Shown here piece after piece: positions 6,603-24,823 of a stretch of 25,099 nucleotides of DNA. Position 1 is the stretch's first letter, and each line of letters opens with the position of its first letter. The stretch is taken from IMG/VR virus record IMGVR_UViG_3300033981_002502, positions 1 through 25,099 of that record; one strand, 5' to 3'. The translations under genes were made by a program, and so were the position numbers. The DNA comes from a virus. The notes below the pieces were generated by a model. That model was given only the letters and a program-made list of their open reading frames with translations. It was not told the DNA's origin and did no database searches.

Positions 6603-6856
6603 TCGCCGAGGTGGAGGAGGTGGGCTTCGAGGTATTTGCTGGCAGCGTGTAGGTGCTTGGCGGCCTCGGTGCGGTCCGCGGTGGCGCGGGTCCAGGCGTC
6701 ACCGGACTGCACGTAGTAGTCGCGGCAGTTGAACTCGATGGCGTTGAAGGCGGTGATGGCCTCGTTGAGGCGGTTCCAGGCCTCGAAGTAGCCGTCGGCG
6801 AGCATCTTGCGGCTGGTGCCGTTGAGGTGGATGGTGGGGAGGGTGGGGTTAGTCAT
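6599..6856 (-). CDS. Small helical hypothetical protein, 85 aa
   Basis: The product MTNPTLPTIHLNGTSRKMLADGYFEAWNRLNEAITAFNAIEFNCRDYYVQSGDAWTRATADRTEAAKHLHAASKYLEAHL is almost wholly helical. The pattern HLNGTS...LxxxYxxAxxAL...F.xxxFNxRDYYxQ...W..A...R is one I know from small phage proteins of unknown function, where it includes the motif 'NxRDYY'. It is ATGA-coupled at both ends, to the HNH gene upstream and the 91-aa gene downstream. Confidence 0.75.
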   Translation of the reverse strand: MTNPTLPTIHLNGTSRKMLADGYFEAWNRLNEAITAFNAIEFNCRDYYVQSGDAWTRATADRTEAAKHLHAASKYLEAHLLHLGE

Positions 6857-7506
6857 GGTTCAGTAGGGAAAGTGCGATTCCAGTTGGCATGACGCGCCAG
6901 CTTTGGGGTAACTGCCGCTTCTTTCTCGGACCAGCCGAGTTGCAAGCGCCGATAGAACGTGGTCGGATCCAAGCCGTGCAGATTCATCCAACCCTGCACC
7001 GTCAAGGATTGTCCGTTATGCTCTATCACTTTATTAGAGCTCTTGTTGTTATTCTGTTGCTTAAAAGTCGCCCATCGACAATTACTAGGCTCGTAATTGC
7101 CTGAGTTGTCGATCCTGTCTAAGGTGTGAGCTTCGGGGCACTCACCCATGTCGCTAGCGAACTGGTTAAAGTCGTTCAACCATGTACTAACAATCTCGAC
7201 ATTGGCGTAGTAGGGATCACGTCGCACTCTGGTCTTCATGTTCATCCATGCGTTGTAAGTGCGCGACTTATTGCCCCTTTGACTCTGCCCATGCCGCCGG
7301 GTGCAACCACAGCTCTGAGCGGGTGCGCGGGTTCTTGTAAGTACGTAGTTGCGAATGACAAGCTCTTTCCCGCACACGCAGCTGCACAGGCTAGCGGGCA
7401 CACGCTGCCTGCTTTCCTGTATGAAGTGAGTGTTATCTAGCACTGTGAGCTTGCCAAACTCAGTGCCGATCTCGGGGGCGGGTTTGAACTGCCCTTTCCT
7501 AGCCAT
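6853..7506 (-). CDS. HNH-type endonuclease with zinc ribbon and C-terminal HTH, 217 aa
   Basis: Residues about 41-68 hold a four-cysteine ribbon (LCSCVCGKE ... SCGC). SRTYNAWMNMKTRVR follows, then the catalytic-type block ECPEAHTLDRIDNSGNYEPSNCRWATFKQQNNNKSSN (residues about 122-158). This 'LDRIDNxGxYxxxNCRWAT' pattern is the hallmark of a large HNH-like phage endonuclease family. The C-terminal LTVQGWMNLHGLDPTTFYRRLQLGWSEKEAA resembles the HTH that homing enzymes use for site binding. The ATGA overlap with the next gene shows it is fitted into the operon. It is probably a free-standing homing endonuclease; AT content is higher than in its neighbours, which suggests a separate origin. Confidence 0.85.
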   Translation of the reverse strand: MARKGQFKPAPEIGTEFGKLTVLDNTHFIQESRQRVPASLCSCVCGKELVIRNYVLTRTRAPAQSCGCTRRHGQSQRGNKSRTYNAWMNMKTRVRRDPYYANVEIVSTWLNDFNQFASDMGECPEAHTLDRIDNSGNYEPSNCRWATFKQQNNNKSSNKVIEHNGQSLTVQGWMNLHGLDPTTFYRRLQLGWSEKEAAVTPKLARHANWNRTFPTEP

Positions 7507-11032: not shown

Positions 11033-11674
11033 ATGCCCAACCAGACGTACCAGCTGTGCTTACCGCTGACCGACGTTGCTTACGCGTTCAACGAGAAAGG
11101 CAGCCCAAGGCCCATCCCTCCCGTGGTCAAAGAGCTGTTTGCAGTGTGCGGCGACTCACCTTCCGGTCTCGTGTGGAAAGTAGTTAGTAAAAATAGCAGG
11201 GCAAAAGTTGGCAAACCCGCAGGTAGTAAATCTGGAGCAAAATGGCTTGTGTCTGTGCGTGGTCATGGTCTGTTCTATGCTCATCGAATTGTGTACTACT
11301 TAAAGTACGGTCAAGACCCGGGCCACATGGTTGTAAGGCACACAGACACAGATGCTTTAATACTCGGATGGCAAGATGACAATGGACACGATGAAAAAGG
11401 TGTGCCTAAAACGAAGAAAGATCGCGAACCTACGTCGCCTACGTGGTTAAAAAACGAAATGACAAAAAAGCTAAAAGAAAAAGAAGTAGTTATAGGTAAC
11501 GTTACTAAGACTATGTACCGATACGAAGGCGTCCTGTATAATGCAAAAAGTTTATGTGAGAAGTTAAAGCTAAATTACTCTAGCATTTATCAGCGTATGC
11601 ATAGGTGCAAGTACACAGGAAAATACGCGTTTGCGCTAGAAGGAGTAGAAGTAGACCAAATAGCTGTTTGGTAG
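11033..11674 (+). CDS. Degenerate HNH-endonuclease-like protein, 213 aa
   Basis: The central part follows the layout of HNH homing-type proteins: SGLVWKV, then a KVGKPAG turn, WLVSVRGHGLFYAHRIVYYLKYGQDPGHMVVRHTDTDALILGWQDDNGHDEKG (residues about 78-124). In active members the AHRIVY helix is followed by VDHxDGNxxNN; here it is VVRHTDTDALI, keeping the His but not the Asp before it or the Asn. The C-terminus (YRYEGVLYNAKSLCEKLKLNYSSIYQRMHRCKYTGKYAF) is a NUMOD-like helix-turn-helix. The gene is clearly more AT-rich than its surroundings, consistent with transfer. Its TAG abuts the TAG of the convergent sigma gene (TAGCTA). It may now be a DNA-binding protein rather than a nuclease. Confidence 0.75.
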   Translation: MPNQTYQLCLPLTDVAYAFNEKGSPRPIPPVVKELFAVCGDSPSGLVWKVVSKNSRAKVGKPAGSKSGAKWLVSVRGHGLFYAHRIVYYLKYGQDPGHMVVRHTDTDALILGWQDDNGHDEKGVPKTKKDREPTSPTWLKNEMTKKLKEKEVVIGNVTKTMYRYEGVLYNAKSLCEKLKLNYSSIYQRMHRCKYTGKYAFALEGVEVDQIAVW

Positions 11675-12565
11675 CTACGCATCGAAAGCTTCCCAAGTGT
11701 AGGAGAGCTCTACACGTAGCTTGTGTAGGGCTTTTTTGTACATGGCGGAGATGCGATATCGCGATATGTTCAGCTCTTCCGATAGCTGATGCAAGCTGCG
11801 CTTCTCAAAGTACAGTGATTGCACGATCAGATGCTGTGTTGGATCGAGCGTGCCGAGTGCTCGGTAGAGCAGCTCTTCGCGCTCGGTGGATAGAACCGCT
11901 AGGTCCGGGGATTCATTGATGGTGGGGTTGTCAGTAGTGAGTACCTCGAGGATGGATGTATCCGATAGCTGGCAAAGGGAATCGATAGACGTGCAATCGG
12001 TGATGGTGCAGCTGACTAAAGTCTCGGTTATGCGCTCACAGGGGAGGTCGAGCTCAGTGCTCAGCTCCTCGAGGGTGGGAGGTCTGCCATAAGCTGCAGT
12101 TAATGTGTGCATTGTGCGGCGTATTTTTGTAGCTAAATCCTGTACGTTAATTGGTAGCCGTATCGTGCGGGATGAATTGTAGAGCGCGCGTGATATCGAC
12201 TGACGAATCCACCAGTAGCTGTAAGTGCTAAAGGCGTAGCCGCGGGTAGGGTCGAAGAGCTCGATACCGCGGATGAGGCCGAGGCTGCCCTCCTGAATGA
12301 GGTCGCTCAGCTCGAGGCCACGGTTCTGGTAGCGCTTGGCGAGGTGGACAACGAGCCGCAGATTGGTGCGCACCATGATGTCCAGGGAGCGCTTGCCGAG
12401 CCGGGCAACGTGAGCGGGAGCGGCGGTGCGATCGGGCTCGGAGGCACCGGGTGGTGTGTAGTCGACCCAGGCGCGGATGCGGTAGGCGTGGCGGAGCTGC
12501 GCTTCGCGGGAGAGGATCGGGTGCCGGGCGATGTCGCTGAGGTACTTGGAGATGAGATCCGACAT
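11675..12565 (-). CDS. Phage-encoded group-2-type sigma-70 factor, 296 aa
   Basis: The protein should redirect RNA polymerase. Region 1.2-like sequence lies at residues 4-35 (LISKYLSDIARHPILSREAQL). Region 2 spans 66-130 and is well conserved: NLRLVVHLAKRYQNRGLELSDLIQEGSLGLIRGIELFDPTRGYAFSTYSYWWIRQSISRAL. Region 3 spans about 133-190 and region 4 about 226-290. The layout matches cyanobacterial group 2 sigma factors (about 300-400 aa), without a long N-terminal extension. In region 4.2 the recognition helix reads ISRYRISAMY (267-276), where host factors have VTRERIRQIE, so several -35-contacting residues differ. In region 2.4 Gln122 is kept, but the residue equivalent to Thr440 of E. coli RpoD is Ser125. 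It is the last gene of a leftward operon. Confidence 0.9.
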   Translation of the reverse strand: MSDLISKYLSDIARHPILSREAQLRHAYRIRAWVDYTPPGASEPDRTAAPAHVARLGKRSLDIMVRTNLRLVVHLAKRYQNRGLELSDLIQEGSLGLIRGIELFDPTRGYAFSTYSYWWIRQSISRALYNSSRTIRLPINVQDLATKIRRTMHTLTAAYGRPPTLEELSTELDLPCERITETLVSCTITDCTSIDSLCQLSDTSILEVLTTDNPTINESPDLAVLSTEREELLYRALGTLDPTQHLIVQSLYFEKRSLHQLSEELNISRYRISAMYKKALHKLRVELSYTWEAFDA

Positions 12566-12785: not shown

Positions 12786-12970
12786 TAGACGGTGATTTTT
12801 AGCTGAACGTAGTATGCGGTAGAGGAAGAACCGAAGCGAGAAACAGGAGTAATGATTAAGTCGTCAACGGTTGTTCCGGTAATCTCGCTGAAGTCATTAA
12901 GGGTGGCTGTGATGTGCTTTTCTAGATGTTCGATCTGCTGACGCAGTTCAAGGACAGTTAGAGTGGTCAT
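12785..12970 (-). CDS. Small hypothetical protein, 61 aa
   Basis: The product MTTLTVLELRQQIEHLEKHITATLNDFSEITGTTVDDLIITPVSRFGSSSTAYYVQLKITV has an N-terminal coiled-coil helix and a C-terminal beta strand pair. The pattern LxxEIxxxIxxFExxTGxxVxxI...YxVxxxI is shared by many small phage proteins of unknown function. The start overlaps the dNMP kinase stop as ATGA. Confidence 0.7.
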   Translation of the reverse strand: MTTLTVLELRQQIEHLEKHITATLNDFSEITGTTVDDLIITPVSRFGSSSTAYYVQLKITV

Positions 12971-13578
12971 ACAGATACCGTGTACTCATTAAAAGCTACA
13001 ATGTCGTCGATATCAGCGTATAAGGCTTCCAGCGATTTATTGTTATCAATAATGTGCGTGAAGCCTATGGAGTAATCGTTCTCGGGGTCAGCGAGGGCGC
13101 GGAGGTGATCGAGGCTGCCCTCGGAGGCGTGGCGGGTGTTGCGCTTGACACCGGGGCGAGTGACCTTCCAGAGCTGGGCGCCGAAGCGATCGAGGTGGGC
13201 GGCCTCGTTAGGGAAGCGCATGTCGTCGACGACGACGCGGGTGATCCCCTGGAGGTGGAGGCGCATGTAGCGGGAGGTCCAGCAGCGGAGCCAGATCTCG
13301 GGGTGGACGCAGTCGCGGCCCCACTCGGTGCCGAGGGTGCGGAGCAGGTGGCGGGCGTCGACGTGTTCGTCGATCTCGGGGAGGGGCGCAGTCTTGGCGA
13401 CGTGTGTCATGTGGTGGGCGTCCTGGGCGCTGTAGCCGAAGTCCAGCAGCAGGGTGCTGATCATGGATTTCAAGGGCTCGGCGAAGCTGAGGTGGGTGTA
13501 GTCGTGGTGGGTGACGAGGTGATCAGCGATGGCTGATTTGCCGCTGCCGGCGGCGGGGGAGTAGATGCCGATGAGCAT
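12967..13578 (-). CDS. Deoxynucleoside monophosphate kinase, 203 aa
   Basis: The enzyme phosphorylates dNMPs to dNDPs for phage DNA synthesis, in the style of T4 gp1. The P-loop is at residues 8-16 (PAAGSGKSA). SFAEPLKSMISTLL follows (the AxPLK motif of the family), then HLLRTLGTEWGRDCVHPEIWLRCW, a block diagnostic for this kinase, and VVVDDMRFPNEA as the second phosphate-binding loop (DD-RFxNE). The protein is of normal length. It lies in the replication operon beside the exonuclease and acts with ThyX to build the dTTP pool. Confidence 0.9.
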   Translation of the reverse strand: MLIGIYSPAAGSGKSAIADHLVTHHDYTHLSFAEPLKSMISTLLLDFGYSAQDAHHMTHVAKTAPLPEIDEHVDARHLLRTLGTEWGRDCVHPEIWLRCWTSRYMRLHLQGITRVVVDDMRFPNEAAHLDRFGAQLWKVTRPGVKRNTRHASEGSLDHLRALADPENDYSIGFTHIIDNNKSLEALYADIDDIVAFNEYTVSV

Positions 13579-15705: not shown

Positions 15706-18468
15706 ATGGACAAAGAGAACAAAAGCAACGGTGCGGACTTGCTACAAGGTCGCGCCATTGAGTTGCTACGGCGAGACGTATTTCCTGATGGCTGGGCTTT
15801 TGTGCCCGTAGCTGGCAAGGCCACTTTCGTCAAAGAATGGAGCACCAAACCGCTGACGCGGATTGAGTGCATGACGGCCTACCAGCTCAGGCAGGACTAC
15901 GTCGGCCTAGGCGTTGTTACGGGATCGTTCTCGGGGGGACTGATTGCTTTGGACATCGATGGGCCTGAAGCAGATGCGCGCTATTGCGAGGTAGCGGGCG
16001 CTGAGTACGAGCCTTATGGCGAGGAGCGGACGATGTCGTGGACATCGGGTAAGCCGGGGCGTCGGCAGATCCTCTACCAGGTTCCGAAGCGGCTGGTGAC
16101 CGAGCTCGAGCATGTCAAGACGCTGATTCTGCGCACCGATGACGGTGGATGGCATCTGGGGCATGGGGATACCAACCGTGGTGCCGGTGGTGACGTGGAT
16201 GCGATCAGCGGGGCGGCCTACGAAGAAGTGGTGCTGCGGTTCAACGCATGCCAGAGCGTTGTGCCGGGGTCACCACACCCGGATACCAAGCAGCCCTATC
16301 GGTTCCTCAACTACAACGAGGGCCAGGTAGCGACGACACCGCAGTGGGTGCTGGATGTGCTGCGGCCGTATCGGAAGCCGGTGCAGTGGCTGTCTGAGGC
16401 GGAGCAGAAGGAGGTCATGAGCGACCTCGGGGGGCTGACGGCTGTGCCGCCGCGGCAGATCCGCGGGTGGTTCTTCAAGGAGGAGGTGCAGGCGTTGCTG
16501 CGACCTCGGTTGGAGCAGTTGGTGTTCCGCCACGAGGTGTTCGACAAGTACGGGTGGAAGAGCCGCAGCGGGGAGAGGCCGCAGCGGATGAGCGGTTGCC
16601 CATGGCATGGAGGCCGCAGTGGCACAACGTTCCAGTACGCCGAAGAGACCGGGTGCTGGGACTGCAAGGCGTGCGGGGTGGGGGGTGACGTCCTCGATTT
16701 TGTGCACAAGATCCGCACCAAGGACATGCACGCCGGGCGGCCAAACGGGCCCGATCTCGAGGCCTATGTGGCAGAGCTGGCCGGCGAGCTCGGGTACGAC
16801 TATCCGGCGTGTGCGACGGCGACGGAGGTCACCATCAAGGATGCACCGCTGAAGCGGCTGACAGGGGAAGAGTTCTTCACGACAGCGGAGCGGATCATCA
16901 ATGGGTACGACAACGCGGAGCTGGCGCACTACCAGCTGATGGAGCTGGTGCGCGACTCGGGGTTGACCCACGTCTACAAGTCGGGGCCGCAGGTGGAGTC
17001 CGCGCTCGAGCGGTTTCTGCTGCACCAGGAGCAGGTGGTAACGGATCCGCAGTGGCAGGAGAAGGTGCGGGGTGACCGGGACTATCTGATCCCGGACTTT
17101 CTGTCGAAGCCGTCCTCGGTGATGCTGCATGCCCGCGGAGGCATGGGTAAGACGCGACTGGCCGTGCTGATCTCCAAGATTGTGGGGCAGAAGCGCCCGA
17201 TGAAAGTGCGGGGGCTGACGGTGGAGCCGACAGTCTCGGGGAATGTGCTGTTCATCGGCAACGACATGTCGATGACGGACTATGCGGAGTACTTCGATCA
17301 GCAGGGGATCGATTCCAGCGGGGCTGATCGCTGGATGCACTTCAAGCCGCAGTGGCAGCAGAGCCAGTACCGGGTGCTGGTGCGGTGGCTGGAGGAGATC
17401 AAGCCGGTGCTGGTGGTGGTCGACTCGCTGACCTCGGTGAGCATGATGATCGCCGCCAAGGAGTACGAGAAGGAGTACGCCAACACGCTGTACCGCTTGG
17501 CGCGGGAGAACGGCACGGCGTTTCCGGCGACGACGTTCCTGTGGATCCACCACAACACGAAGGACGGCACGAAGTTCCGAGGGACGGACACGTTGCGGAA
17601 TGCGGTGCACGAGACCTGGGAGCTCAAGGATCTGACGGATGAGGATCGGGCGCAGTACGGCGACCATGCGCTCATCCTCGAGATCGACAAGAGCCGGGGC
17701 ATGCGAGGTGGTGACCGCTTCCTGGTGCGGGAGGACATCGAGGAGGCGCTGAGCATCGAGGACCTGACGCCGACCGTGACCCGGGAGAACGGAGGCAACG
17801 GGGATGAGCAACCGCGGACGATCGTTCTCGGGCTACTCAAGGAGGCTGAGGTGCCGATGACGGCCAAGGAGCTGCGTTATGCGCTGAATGCGCGGCTGGC
17901 GGGGCGCAGGGGGCCGGGGACGTGTGTGAGTGAGAAGACGGTGAAGCGGTGGGTGCAGCGGTGGGTTGTTGCCGGTCTCGTGGAGGAGTCGGTGGTGAGA
18001 CAGCCGGAGGGCAAGAAGGGACATCCTTGGACAGCCTTCAGCCTTAAAACCCCCATATACCAGGCACAGGATGTCCGTAAATGCCCAGAATTCTTTCAGG
18101 GGCCTTCCGCTGCAAGGGATTTGAATTACGGACACGCGTTGTCCGTAAATGCCGAGGAGGGCGGTTTGTCCGTAAATGCCGAGGGCGTAATCGGGACAGT
18201 CTCAGGTGAGACAGACGAGACCCGGCTGCCTGTGGAAAGCGTTGTGGAAAAACCCACTGAAGAGCCTCCAACATTTACGGACAAAACGGACACACAAGGG
18301 GGGTTGTCCGTAAATGCGGCGGCCGAAACCCACTCCAGCACAGAGATTCCCGAGGACGCGCCTGCATTTACGGACACGCTCTCGGAGATATATGGGACCC
18401 CCCTCTCTACGCAGGACTACGGAGACTGGGACGACACCGGGTGGGGTGGCTCTTCCGGCAACCGCTGA
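15706..18468 (+). CDS. Primase-polymerase/helicase fusion, 920 aa
   Basis: The protein should prime and unwind phage DNA. Residues 10-230 form an AEP-type primase-polymerase domain: the catalytic pair D83-x-D85 in ALDIDGP, then WTSGKPGRRQILYQ and CQSVVPGSPHPDTKQPYRF. A zinc finger follows (C298, H301, C317/C320, C323: CPWH...CWDCKAC), as in CHC2 primases. The helicase part has Walker A GGMGKT (478-483, K482) and Walker B VLVVVDS (D573), as in RepA/DnaB-like ATPases. A winged helix (TAKELRYAL...VSEKTVKRWVQRWVVAGLVEE) ends near residue 780. The last 135 residues are low-complexity with repeated LSVNA and FTD peptides encoded by the iterons (see repeat). The start at 15706 was chosen because the upstream in-frame part is the hairpin leader. 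Confidence 0.9.
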   Translation: MDKENKSNGADLLQGRAIELLRRDVFPDGWAFVPVAGKATFVKEWSTKPLTRIECMTAYQLRQDYVGLGVVTGSFSGGLIALDIDGPEADARYCEVAGAEYEPYGEERTMSWTSGKPGRRQILYQVPKRLVTELEHVKTLILRTDDGGWHLGHGDTNRGAGGDVDAISGAAYEEVVLRFNACQSVVPGSPHPDTKQPYRFLNYNEGQVATTPQWVLDVLRPYRKPVQWLSEAEQKEVMSDLGGLTAVPPRQIRGWFFKEEVQALLRPRLEQLVFRHEVFDKYGWKSRSGERPQRMSGCPWHGGRSGTTFQYAEETGCWDCKACGVGGDVLDFVHKIRTKDMHAGRPNGPDLEAYVAELAGELGYDYPACATATEVTIKDAPLKRLTGEEFFTTAERIINGYDNAELAHYQLMELVRDSGLTHVYKSGPQVESALERFLLHQEQVVTDPQWQEKVRGDRDYLIPDFLSKPSSVMLHARGGMGKTRLAVLISKIVGQKRPMKVRGLTVEPTVSGNVLFIGNDMSMTDYAEYFDQQGIDSSGADRWMHFKPQWQQSQYRVLVRWLEEIKPVLVVVDSLTSVSMMIAAKEYEKEYANTLYRLARENGTAFPATTFLWIHHNTKDGTKFRGTDTLRNAVHETWELKDLTDEDRAQYGDHALILEIDKSRGMRGGDRFLVREDIEEALSIEDLTPTVTRENGGNGDEQPRTIVLGLLKEAEVPMTAKELRYALNARLAGRRGPGTCVSEKTVKRWVQRWVVAGLVEESVVRQPEGKKGHPWTAFSLKTPIYQAQDVRKCPEFFQGPSAARDLNYGHALSVNAEEGGLSVNAEGVIGTVSGETDETRLPVESVVEKPTEEPPTFTDKTDTQGGLSVNAAAETHSSTEIPEDAPAFTDTLSEIYGTPLSTQDYGDWDDTGWGGSSGNR
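18072..18376. repeat. Iteron-like repeats inside the 3' end of the primase-helicase gene
   Basis: TGTCCGTAAATGC(C) occurs four times in direct orientation (18072-18085, 18140-18153, 18167-18180, 18305-18317) and twice inverted (18272-18283, 18364-18376). A shorter inverted piece (TTACGGACA) lies at 18126-18134. The copies encode different peptides: VRKC once, LSVNA three times and FTD twice. The repeats are therefore conserved as DNA, not as protein. A perfect palindrome GTCTCA-GG-TGAGAC (18199-18212) sits among them. This looks like the iteron array of a replication origin or a binding site for the gene's own product. Confidence 0.75.
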
Positions 18469-18471
18469 GGC

Positions 18472-18693
18472 TCATCCCTGGCGCCAAGGAAGCTCGTCAT
18501 CGAGCTCGGTCAGGTAGCTCGGGTGAACGGGGGTCGCGGCATCTCGCAGCAGTAGCGTTGCTATGAAGCTGCGAGATGTAAAGTGAGACTTAATGAGACT
18601 CTTAGCTAGAGCTTTTAGATCTGCTATATTGGTGCACTCATCGACTTGCCGCAGTGCTGCTTCTTGCGCAAAGCTAAAGGCAATGTTGTCCAT
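18472..18693 (-). CDS. Small helical protein, 73 aa
   Basis: The product MDNIAFSFAQEAALRQVDECTNIADLKALAKSLIKSHFTSRSFIATLLLRDAATPVHPSYLTELDDELPWRQG is a helix-turn-helix hairpin with a short tail. I know similar small proteins (FxFAQxAALxxVxxCxxLxDLKxLxxSLIxxHFxxRxFIxxLLL) from cyanobacteria and their phages, of unknown function. The two-helix shape recalls NblA, but the NblA motifs are missing. It opposes its neighbours: its stop is 3 bp from the primase stop and its start is 24 bp from the polymerase start. Confidence 0.75.
   Translation of the reverse strand: MDNIAFSFAQEAALRQVDECTNIADLKALAKSLIKSHFTSRSFIATLLLRDAATPVHPSYLTELDDELPWRQG
18584..18600. promoter_or_regulatory. Direct repeat of TGAGACT upstream of the polymerase gene
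   Basis: TGAGACT occurs at 18584-18590 and again at 18594-18600, a 10-bp step (one DNA turn). It lies just upstream of an extended -10-like TGC-TATATT (18622-18630) on the + strand, about 90 bp before the polymerase ATG. The site is inside the small leftward gene. Confidence 0.45.
18622..18630 (+). promoter_or_regulatory. Possible extended -10 promoter of the polymerase gene
   Basis: TGC followed by TATATT makes an extended -10 motif. The hexamer 17 bp upstream (TTAGCT, 18602-18607) is a weak -35. Transcription would begin near 18637 and give a leader of about 80 nt that overlaps the small leftward gene in antisense. Confidence 0.35.
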
Positions 18694-18717
18694 GCAAACA
18701 CTCGCATTTAACTGAGT

Positions 18718-20667
18718 ATGCCCTCAACTGAATCGCTCGCGCACAAAGAAGCTTTAGATAATGTTGATTTCGACTTTATCCGGGGGCCACAGGCAGCAGC
18801 GTTGCTGGCCCGCAGGGTTTCCGAGCTCGGGGAAGTGACCGGCCCGCTTGGCGTGGATACGGAGACCACCGGCCTTGATCCGCTGGCAAATCGCGTGCGT
18901 CTCATCCAAGTCGCGAGTTGCGACTACGCCTTGGTTGTGGACGTGGAGGCGTGGCGCGAGGACGGCAAGCGTCAGCTTCCGTGGGATGCACCTGGGCTGC
19001 AGCAGCTCAAGGCGCTGCTTGAGGGACCGAAGCACAAAGTGCTGCAGAACGCGGCGTTTGACTTGAACTTCCTTGCTGGGGAGGGCGTCGAGCTCGGGGG
19101 ATCGATCTTCGACACGATGGTGGCCGCCAAGGTGGTCAACAACGGCACAGGAGCCAAGAACGATCTCGGAAGCTTGGTGAACCGAGTGCTGAAGGTGCCG
19201 CTCGACAAGGAGTTGCAGAAGGCGGACTGGAGTGGCGAGATCTCGGATGAGATGGTGCGCTACGCAGCACGAGACGCTGTGTGCCTTCCACGGATGGTGC
19301 CAGCGCTTGTGGAGGCACTGAAAGACTCCGAGGTGTCGCCCTCGGTGACGTTGTGGGACGTCTTTCGGCTGGAGATGATGGCGCTACGTCCGATTGCACG
19401 GATGCAGTGGAACGGGTTTGGGTTCGACGCGGTGGCTGCCGCAGCTCTGCAAGTCTCATTGCAAGACAACGCTGAGACACTTAAGACTGTGTTCCTTGAG
19501 GCCCTGGATGAGGCCATCAAGCGGGAGAACCCGGATGAGCCTGGGGTGTGGCTACCGCGCGATGACGATGGGACGCTGAACACCCGGGAGAAGGACTCAG
19601 GGTCGATTCGCTTAGGGACGAAGCGCTACAAGGGCTTCAATCCGCGCTCGCCGAAGCAGATGGCAGAGCGCTTCGAGCAAGCGGGGATATTGCTGCCGCC
19701 GGATGAGAAGGGGGCACCGAGCCTGGATCAGAACTTGCTGGCGTTTCTGAAAGGTGAGCACGAGCTCGTGGAGATGTACATGCAGTGGAAGGTGGCTGTG
19801 ACTCGCGTGTCTCATATTGAGAAGCTGCTGGAATCGATCGGGCCGGATGGCAGGATTCATGCCGGGTATAGGCAGATGGGTACGGAAACAGGCAGGCTCA
19901 GCTGTTCTTCGCCGAACCTGCAGCAGGTGCCGCGGGAGGCTGAATTTCGCTGTCTTTTCCGAGCTCGGGAGGGCTACTGCTTGGTGGTGGCCGACTTCTC
20001 ACAGGTGGAGCTGCGTGTAGCAGCGGAGCTTTCGGGGGAGGAGCGCATGCTTGCCGCGTACCGTGCTGGTAGGGATCTGCATACGGAAACTGCAGCTTTG
20101 GTAACAGGTAAAAGTGCTGATAGTATTACTAAGAAAGAACGGACATCAGCCAAGCTTTGTAATTTTGGACTTTTGTACGGGGCTGGAGCTGCTACGTTGA
20201 GGAAGCAAGCTGTCGCACAGTATGGTGTGGATATGGCGCTAGAAGAAGCACAGGAGCTAGTTACTGGGTTTAGGGAAGCCTACCCGCAGCTATATAAGTG
20301 GCAAACTGAAGAAGGTAATAAGACAACACGAGCTGTATTTACTAGGTATGGACGGAGGCGCATACTAACAGGGTTTAACGATAAATACACAACTCGTATC
20401 AACACGCAGGTACAAGGTACTGCGGGAGATATTGCTAAGATAGCTCTTGCCATGATATGGAAGCAAATCAACGCAGCCCGGGCAGGCGAAGCGCTGCTTA
20501 TCGCAATGGTGCACGACGAGATCGTCCTCGAGGTCGAAGAGGAGGTGGTAGACAAATGGGCGAAACGCTTAGCAGCTGCCATGGAAGCTGCTGGTTCGGT
20601 GGTTTGTCAGCAGGTACCTATCGTGGCAGAAGCGTCTTTTGGTACTACCTGGGCTGACGCCAAATAG
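18718..20667 (+). CDS. Family A DNA polymerase with 3'-5' exonuclease, 649 aa
   Basis: The proofreading domain is intact: Exo I D47-T-E49 (GVDTETTGLDP), Exo II N111...D115 (NAAFDLNFL), Exo III Y182xxxD186. The polymerase domain has motif A with D426 (ADFSQVELR), motif B RTSAKLCNFGLLYG with Phe483 at the position of E. coli Phe762, and motif C H599-D600-E601. There is no 5'-3' exonuclease domain, as usual for phage enzymes of 600-700 aa. It is the replicative polymerase. From about 20090 to 20460 the codon use becomes AT-richer than before and after. No Shine-Dalgarno is seen before the ATG. Confidence 0.95.
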   Translation: MPSTESLAHKEALDNVDFDFIRGPQAAALLARRVSELGEVTGPLGVDTETTGLDPLANRVRLIQVASCDYALVVDVEAWREDGKRQLPWDAPGLQQLKALLEGPKHKVLQNAAFDLNFLAGEGVELGGSIFDTMVAAKVVNNGTGAKNDLGSLVNRVLKVPLDKELQKADWSGEISDEMVRYAARDAVCLPRMVPALVEALKDSEVSPSVTLWDVFRLEMMALRPIARMQWNGFGFDAVAAAALQVSLQDNAETLKTVFLEALDEAIKRENPDEPGVWLPRDDDGTLNTREKDSGSIRLGTKRYKGFNPRSPKQMAERFEQAGILLPPDEKGAPSLDQNLLAFLKGEHELVEMYMQWKVAVTRVSHIEKLLESIGPDGRIHAGYRQMGTETGRLSCSSPNLQQVPREAEFRCLFRAREGYCLVVADFSQVELRVAAELSGEERMLAAYRAGRDLHTETAALVTGKSADSITKKERTSAKLCNFGLLYGAGAATLRKQAVAQYGVDMALEEAQELVTGFREAYPQLYKWQTEEGNKTTRAVFTRYGRRRILTGFNDKYTTRINTQVQGTAGDIAKIALAMIWKQINAARAGEALLIAMVHDEIVLEVEEEVVDKWAKRLAAAMEAAGSVVCQQVPIVAEASFGTTWADAK

Positions 20668-20708: not shown

Positions 20709-21098
20709 ATGCTGACTGGACAGGAGCTGCTTTCGTTTGTGAAAGCCAATGCCGACATGGATCAAGCCGAGCTTGCCCGTGAAGCTGGCTATGTGAAGAC
20801 TACAGATAAAGGTACTGAGCGCTTGTTGATCAACAAGCTGCACGAAGCACTGCTTGATGCTAAGGGTGTGAAGCTTAAGACCAGTAAGAAGCCGGGTAAG
20901 ACTGCTCAGTTTATGACCACCGTGCATCGCACTGGGGTTATTCTGGTTGGCAAGACTTATTCTGAGAAGTTCGGTGTAGAGCCTGGCGATGAACTCAAAA
21001 TTGTTATTGAGGATGATGCGATTCGCTTGGTGCCTCAAACAGCTGGATCTAAGCCGGCGGTAACTAAAGTTGGTTCTAACACTGTATCTGCTATCTGA
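20709..21098 (+). CDS. Cyanobacterial-type AbrB (cyAbrB) transcription regulator, 129 aa
   Basis: The N-terminus LTGQELLSFVKANADMDQAELAREAGYVKTTDKGTERLLINKLHEALLDAKGVKL (residues 2-56) matches the lineage-specific cyAbrB layout: LTGxxLLxxVKxxxxxxxxExAxxxGY...G..R......xALLxAKG. The C-terminus GVILVGKTYSEKFGVEPGDELKIVIEDDAIRLV (about 76-108) is the DNA-binding beta part, with the (Y/S)TExxGxxPGDEFxIxL pattern. In cyanobacteria cyAbrB proteins tune carbon/nitrogen metabolism and other global programs, so a phage copy could reset host transcription. It is followed by a 75-aa gene with a one-base overlap (TGATG). Confidence 0.9.
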   Translation: MLTGQELLSFVKANADMDQAELAREAGYVKTTDKGTERLLINKLHEALLDAKGVKLKTSKKPGKTAQFMTTVHRTGVILVGKTYSEKFGVEPGDELKIVIEDDAIRLVPQTAGSKPAVTKVGSNTVSAI

Positions 21099-23974: not shown

Positions 23975-24823
23975 TCATAGTACCGGCATTTCGTATTCCT
24001 GGGTGGTGTTGCAGTAATGCTTGAAGATCACCTCGCTGGTATTTCCGGCCCATGCAGCGACTTGAGGTACGGGAATCCCTGCTTCGATCCAGCGGCTGAT
24101 GGCGGTGTGGCGACAGTCGTAGGGACGATATAAGTGTGAGATTAGTTCTACTTGTTTGAGCGGACTCAGCTTTTTACGGAAGTAGCTTTGGAAGGCAAGG
24201 CGATCCCAAGGAAATAAATACTCATCTGTTTGAGGTAAACTAGATAGTATGTCGAGACAGCGTTGGTTAAGTGGTACCCAGCGTTTTTTGTTAGTTTTTG
24301 TACTATTTTTTATTCCATGAGTAAGTGTGTAATTTTGATGGACTAACACACGATTATCTTTAATGTCGTTCCACGTTAGCGCACGGACTTCACCTGTGCG
24401 CATAGCTGTTTGGAGCATAAACTCTGTGTATAAAGCCCAGTTAACGTGCTTGTACGTTTGCTTAGCTTCTAATGCGGCTAGAACAAGTCCTACTTCATTA
24501 CGCGGTATTACTATTATATCTTCATCTTTTTGAGGTGCTTTGGGCATTTTGAAGCTAGCTAACGGGTTACGCGGTATAAGTGCTACGTCTTCCTGCGCAG
24601 CCCAGCGATACATTGTTTTAAGATACATAGCAACACGTCTGGATGTCAGTACTGGCTGTTGACCTAGTACCCAGATCATGATCTCACGAGCTCGGGAAAT
24701 ATCCTGCTGAGGGCAGCGAGCTAGCCATTTAGTAACTTGCTTGTAGTCTGATGTAAGACTTGTCGGGCAAAGCGATATGGCGCGTTCTGTTTGGAAAGCG
24801 ATCCACAGATCGGATAGGAGCAT
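23975..24823 (-). CDS. Tyrosine recombinase / phage integrase, 282 aa
   Basis: This enzyme inserts phage DNA into the host chromosome. The catalytic residues are visible: Arg142 in MLQTAMRTGEVRALTW, Arg238-His239 in YDCRHTAISRWIEAGIPVPQVAAWAGN, and the nucleophile Tyr270 in IFKHYCN. The HxxRH motif reads YDCRH, with Tyr in place of the first His, as in many cyanobacterial integrases. A SAM-like N-terminal core-binding domain spans residues 1-100 or so. The length is at the short end of the family, with no long arm-binding domain. The gene is more AT-rich than the left arm and lies between a candidate att region (24824-24984) and the 105-aa gene. Confidence 0.95.
   Translation of the reverse strand: MLLSDLWIAFQTERAISLCPTSLTSDYKQVTKWLARCPQQDISRAREIMIWVLGQQPVLTSRRVAMYLKTMYRWAAQEDVALIPRNPLASFKMPKAPQKDEDIIVIPRNEVGLVLAALEAKQTYKHVNWALYTEFMLQTAMRTGEVRALTWNDIKDNRVLVHQNYTLTHGIKNSTKTNKKRWVPLNQRCLDILSSLPQTDEYLFPWDRLAFQSYFRKKLSPLKQVELISHLYRPYDCRHTAISRWIEAGIPVPQVAAWAGNTSEVIFKHYCNTTQEYEMPVL

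Follow-up and report, generated by a model that had tools for sequence, protein, structure and literature searches.

The 3′ end of a primase-helicase gene in an integrase-bearing cyanophage carries an array of short repeats that, with good confidence, we interpret as the initiator-binding iterons of the phage replication origin, located inside the gene of the initiator itself. The array is constrained as DNA, its motif is specific to it, the recognition helix and wing of a predicted winged helix in the encoded protein covary with separate halves of the repeated site, and near-identical phages differ by swaps of wing and array as a block. That the array is an active origin we infer from these properties; that the winged helix recognises the array is, on the basis of sequence covariation, a claim we would make with greater confidence still.

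A repeat array inside a primase-helicase gene

The window, that is, the whole stretch of DNA analysed, is a 25,099-base IMG/VR virus record representing a 25 kb piece of this phage. The primase-helicase (920 residues) consists of Prim-Pol, a zinc ribbon, an AAA_25 helicase, a C-terminal winged helix and a variable tail, and the array lies in the part of the gene that encodes the tail; the only Pfam domains of the protein are Prim-Pol, AAA_25 and zinc ribbons. Neighbouring genes encode an SSB-like protein and, after the primase-helicase gene, DNA polymerase A (polA); arrays sit directly ahead of polA. The features are as follows.

15706–18468, + strand: primase-helicase gene (Pfam Prim-Pol 2e-13, AAA_25 2e-10)
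17932–17973, + strand: predicted recognition helix (SEKTVKRW...; AlphaFold2 helix 58–71), tracking the 5′ half TGTCC
17980–18045, + strand: predicted wing, two strands and a loop, RQPEGKKGHPWTAF (AlphaFold2 strands 74–79 and 90–95), tracking the 3′ half GTAAATGC
18004–18398, no strand: swapped specificity block (wing loop and array), sharing about 60% identity with phage L007 between flanks of 95–98%; edges approximate
18072–18084, + strand: iteron 1, TGTCCGTAAATGC, exact 13-mer
18122–18134, − strand: iteron 2, degenerate, TGTCCGTAATTCA, exact over TGTCCGTAA
18140–18152, + strand: iteron 3, exact 13-mer
18167–18179, + strand: iteron 4, exact 13-mer
18199–18212, no strand: palindrome GTCTCAGGTGAGAC, partly kept in near relatives of the clade
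18231–18251, − strand: tandem DnaA-box-like pair CTTTCCACA / TTTTCCACA, the second an exact cyanobacterial DnaA box
18271–18283, − strand: iteron 5, one mismatch
18305–18317, + strand: iteron 6, exact 13-mer
18364–18376, − strand: iteron 7, exact 13-mer
18550–18750, no strand: AT-richer stretch, a weak candidate unwinding region (52–57% AT versus 40% overall)

Six near-exact copies and one degenerate copy of TGTCCGTAAATGC thus occupy 18072–18376, giving seven sites within 305 bp in both orientations (+ − + + − + −). A sequence-only reading had described these six copies and one degenerate inverted piece at the 3′ end of the gene, together with a palindrome (GTCTCA-GG-TGAGAC), and all of them were found where it had placed them. 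The position of the degenerate site is homologous to that of an inverted copy in relatives. Its claim that the window has the motif nowhere else also held: the 12-mer TGTCCGTAAATG occurs six times, always in the array, a reversed control pattern of it has no occurrence in the window, and the remaining three window matches carry three mismatches, which is the chance expectation. No tRNA, Rfam family, promoter or terminator was found in the array region.

The AT-richer stretch is modest and overlaps a small reverse-strand ORF (18472–18693, −, 73 aa) between the primase-helicase gene and polA. This ORF is recognisable in near relatives, and its only PHROG match is weak and to a family of unknown function. 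Elsewhere, the window encodes ThyX (542–1270), a sigma-70 factor (11675–12565), a deoxynucleotide monophosphate kinase (12967–13578), an AbrB-like regulator (20709–21095) and a tyrosine integrase (23975–24823), a predicted gene content suggesting that the phage is probably temperate. Two HNH endonuclease-like genes are also present (6853–7506, −, and 11033–11674, +).

Relatives keep the array and change the motif

Relatives comprised 70 related loci in IMG/VR, further loci found by profile scan, and prophages from Cyanobium and other picocyanobacterial genomes; no new relatives came from two scans of viral sequences that used divergent queries. The 12-mer TGTCCGTAAATG was found in none of the 70 related loci, even allowing one mismatch. 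Most relatives instead have 4–9 copies of one different short motif in the same stretch, at homologous positions and in homologous orientations. The motif types include TGTCCAAAACC, TGTCCGTAACC, TGACCAAAACC, TGAGCAAAACC, TGTCAAAAACC, TGTCGTTAA, TGTCCGAACC, TGTCCGCAC, TGTCCATCGTT, TGTCAATCGTT, TGTCCATTGCT, TGTCCTTTGC, TGTCCGTTCAT, TGATATTTG, TGATTCGATC, TGTCCCTATAT, TGTCGCTCGTT, TGACCGAAAAT and others. Collectively, some 55 matched protein/array pairs represent about 25 motif types, and the type differs by clade. Motif seeds were set by hand for array calling in the relatives, and the motif finder was rerun with a composition filter, against CG runs in some clades. Arrays were weak in five loci (L059, L070, L089, L090 and L158), and a few relatives (L037 and fragments) had no clear array; a CCCCGAGGA repeat in L037 was left uncounted, as nine copies of CCCCGAGG lie outside the tail.

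These motifs are largely private to their arrays. In 10 whole contigs of 23–66 kb, 67 of 67 copies of TGTCCAAAAC are inside the array; the motifs of L081 and L079 are confined to the array in host genomes of 2.9 Mb and 3.2 Mb, respectively, and 6 of 9 copies of the L077 motif in its host genome fall in the array. Counting the motif across phage and host, a check proposed by the sequence-only reading, therefore supported it, with the window motif and its equivalents array-only in contigs and the latter nearly so in hosts. The same counts bear on whether a dispersed host or mobile repeat (MITE or HIP1-like) simply landed by chance in the gene. Short repeated units in both orientations would suit such an origin, but the window motif is absent from the rest of the window and from nine picocyanobacterial genomes, its two-copy pattern is absent from IMG/VR, and relatives carry different arrays at the same sites. 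A chance landing is thus already refuted by the motif counts, and we give it almost no credence.

Several individual loci deserve mention. One contig (L009) matches the window protein with 100% identity across 784 residues and stops (7353) immediately ahead of the first iteron, where the repeats probably broke the assembly. The array of L190 mixes the variants TGTTCCTAAC and TGTCCCTAAC (tail offsets 276–591), and is possibly in transition between motif types. Three genomes harbour two elements each (L182/L215, L186/L216 and L217/L218), with motif types that differ within each pair; this is weak evidence on incompatibility, the types being so many.

Selection acts on the DNA rather than the peptide

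The copies in the window encode three peptides in different frames, VRKC, LSVNA (three times) and FTD (twice), as had been read from the sequence. If the repeats were selected as protein, for example as a partner-binding motif repeated in a flexible tail, one would expect the tail to be in frame in most relatives and peptides to recur, and both are seen, the recurring peptides being LSVNA and SKT. This explanation has difficulty, however, with copies in both orientations and several frames, and with the pattern of substitution. In the clade of TGTCCAAAACC, mean heterozygosity at codon positions 1, 2 and 3 is 0.064, 0.057 and 0.065 in iteron columns versus 0.140, 0.127 and 0.328 in winged-helix columns; iteron columns were picked for motif presence, such that their low diversity is partly by construction, but their flat codon-position profile is not. 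The frozen third positions are reflected in pS: iteron codons have 0.15, compared with 0.36 for the remaining tail and 0.65 for the enzyme core. The pN/pS ratio is 1.23 for iteron codons, 0.73 for the tail and 0.12 for the core. Two relatives (L054 and L077) have their entire array outside the gene, past its stop codon.

Flat conservation across codon positions, low pS and arrays past the stop codon together mean that peptide-level explanations fail; selection on protein repeats is refuted as the main explanation, and we assign it a negligible probability. These results bear out the claim of the sequence-only reading that selection acts on the DNA, and they answer a comparison it had proposed: relatives retain an array at the same positions even though the encoded peptide differs. 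Within the iterons, synonymous change is suppressed.

Helix and wing each track one half of the repeated site

AlphaFold2 predicts a winged helix (mean pLDDT 77) just ahead of the tail, with helices at 18–28, 35–46 and 58–71 and strands at 74–79 and 90–95 (fragment numbering), and the array follows it, in agreement with the domain order proposed from the sequence. A PDB fold search returned only generic winged helices, including replication terminator protein and Orc1, and a PDB sequence search with the full-length profile gave no match. Across 10 phage records and 9 genomes, this winged helix was found only in the primase-helicase.

In partial Mantel tests on 45 distinct systems, controlling for relatedness of the enzyme core, pairwise distances among recognition helices correlated with those among 5′ half-sites (r = 0.69) and pairwise distances among wings with those among 3′ half-sites (r = 0.65), whereas the cross correlations were −0.26 and −0.12; because the systems are related, permutation p-values are inexact. 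When weak and hand-set arrays were dropped and the largest clade was thinned, r was 0.42–0.54 for helix and 5′ half and 0.71–0.73 for wing and 3′ half, with cross terms near zero or below.

Within one group, wings of the class S/A-D-K-P accompany TTGC, Q-[RN]-[RK]-P accompanies TTCA and x-K-[TA]-P accompanies TCGTT. The 3′ half agreed with the prediction from wing class in all 19 of 19 systems, across different helix backgrounds; of 100,000 stratified shuffles, 1 did equally well. In the recognition helix, a leucine in place of lysine or arginine accompanies TGAT in two lineages (L091 and L181). The prophage L179 is nearest overall to L032 (TGAGCAAAACC), yet has a helix and wing of the L039 type and a matching array of seven copies of TGTCGTTAA. 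Within a single genome, L182 and L215 combine like wings and 3′ halves with unlike helices and 5′ halves (TGTCGCTCGTT versus TGTCCCTCGTT).

These patterns also address the idea that another protein uses the array for packaging, partition or recombination, with the winged helix covarying merely through physical linkage. Helix, wing and array are adjacent and so would be co-inherited as blocks. Linkage alone, though, gives no double dissociation, nor does it account for the recurrence of one wing class with one 3′ half in different backgrounds or for the L182/L215 pair, and we consider a site for another protein very improbable.

Specificity blocks are swapped between near-identical phages

What separates the window from phage L007 is a single swapped block, about 390 bp of wing plus array: identity is about 95% in the core and 98% in the recognition helix, drops to 65% in the wing and 61% in the array, and returns to 98% just after it. 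Similar contrasts in core, helix, wing and array identity were found for L063/L073 (99, 95, 64 and 73%), L085/L093 (97, 87, 59 and 69%), L088/L089 (94, 87, 61 and 57%) and, as a helix switch, L091/L137 (97, 84, 85 and 70%). Site positions and orientations are retained across the switch; therefore, either a new block took the place of the old one or every site was converted, with the layout intact. A two-copy motif search of IMG/VR found no donor of the window's block.

We lean, with little more than even confidence, towards a modular code in which the 5′ half-site is specified by the helix and the 3′ half-site by the wing, with independent mixing of the two in nature, and in which wing and array are traded together, probably escaping origin-directed attack or prophage incompatibility. 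By analogy, an origin-directed nuclease, as in PLEs, and iteron incompatibility between resident prophages are possible drivers of the swaps.

A probable replication origin

In the mechanism we propose, the C-terminal winged helix of the primase-helicase would bind the iteron copies and so gather several molecules, and the fused helicase and primase may then start replication beside or within the array. Recognition would be in two parts, with the helix reading the 5′ half (TGTCC in the window) and the wing the 3′ half (GTAAATGC). Because the specificity-determining protein segment and its sites lie side by side, they could be exchanged between phages as one block.

Host DnaA perhaps assists in the clade of the window, where a tandem pair of DnaA-box-like 9-mers lies at the array centre. 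DnaA boxes are common, though not universal, in iteron-type origins. The exact box TTTTCCACA, the cyanobacterial DnaA box consensus (PMC4674748), has 9 of its 10 copies inside arrays across 11 contigs. DnaA boxes as a family-wide trait were rejected, as they are present only in this clade.

The sequence-only reading had proposed looking for a GC-skew inflection at the array; none was seen in five long contigs or in the window. This lends no support to a bidirectional origin, yet is compatible with a unidirectional one. GC skew is one-signed along most of several 56–71 kb contigs (G003, G004, G012, G013 and G015; L160–L178), and is one-signed throughout the window although its genes point both ways, a pattern that would fit unidirectional replication.

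The missing inflection also suits a different role, in which the winged helix binds the sites mainly as operators repressing its own gene or downstream polA, or as a copy-control sink. Any binding function explains the covariation equally, and the arrays lie just before polA. However, a weak search found no sigma-70-type promoter within or beside the array, the protein that would read the sites is a primase-helicase and not a repressor, and the layout looks like that of an origin, with six to seven alternating sites spread along 300 bp where the gene ends and, in the clade, DnaA boxes. We therefore regard a mainly regulatory role as unlikely, and origin iterons as the preferred reading.

Implications

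Initiator/iteron pairs decide which replicons can share one cell. Changes in their specificity are hard to study, as the protein and all of its sites must change together without killing the replicon. Here nature provides some 55 matched pairs, near-identical phages that differ in the specificity block, and half-switches of both kinds, such that short proteins and DNA probes would allow direct tests of how origin specificity evolves and of a readable helix/wing code. The arrays also mark likely origins in little-studied cyanophages and in prophages of Cyanobium and its relatives.

Comparison with known systems

Among open-licence papers, we found no publication on this array system. The only annotated phage record with detectable similarity to the window protein is the primase/polymerase of Synechococcus phage S-LBS1, at 30% identity over the Prim-Pol part, covering 23% of the protein.

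A close arrangement is that of SaPI Rep (SaPI5 and SaPIbov1) and SCCmec Cch2, in which a helicase reads iterons at the 3′ terminus of its own gene through a C-terminal DNA-binding domain, the SaPI5 Rep being a primase-helicase fusion (PMC7581432). The window protein is likewise a helicase, with a predicted C-terminal winged helix that covaries with the repeats at the end of the gene and would read them. Domain content differs, with D5-type or DUF927 helicases there and Prim-Pol plus AAA_25 here; Pfam found no D5_N/Primase_Cterm or DUF927 domain in the window protein, which on domain content falls outside SaPI Rep. Their origin is downstream of the gene, whereas here it would be mostly inside.

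Phage λ O has iterons within the initiator gene and an adjoining AT-rich region (PMC7466680); the placement of the iterons resembles that here, where the AT-richer stretch is a weak candidate counterpart, but the oriλ iterons are 19 bp imperfect inverted repeats in mid-gene and the protein family differs: the Pfam and PHROGs matches of the window protein are primase and RecA-like families, giving no sign of homology to λ O. λ O is not known to be a helicase or a primase. In the archaeal plasmid pRN1, the replication protein ORF904, a Prim-Pol/helicase, is comparable in kind, and DNA immediately downstream of its gene is required (PMC4234260); there a stem-loop is needed, and iterons were not found.

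The swaps are matched by RepA_N of PLEs, Vibrio cholerae satellites, in which, as here, the iterons covary with the DNA-binding domain and modular swaps of the two occur, and in which Odn, an origin-directed nuclease of ICP1, probably selects for the swaps (PMC8263062). PLE iterons are about 30 bp and intergenic and come in two allelic types, compared with about 25 motif types here, and the half-site tracking seen here was resolved only in the present system. The working principle is thus already known from SaPI Rep/Cch2, λ O and PLE RepA, and the array described here is best read as a variant of such initiator/iteron systems.
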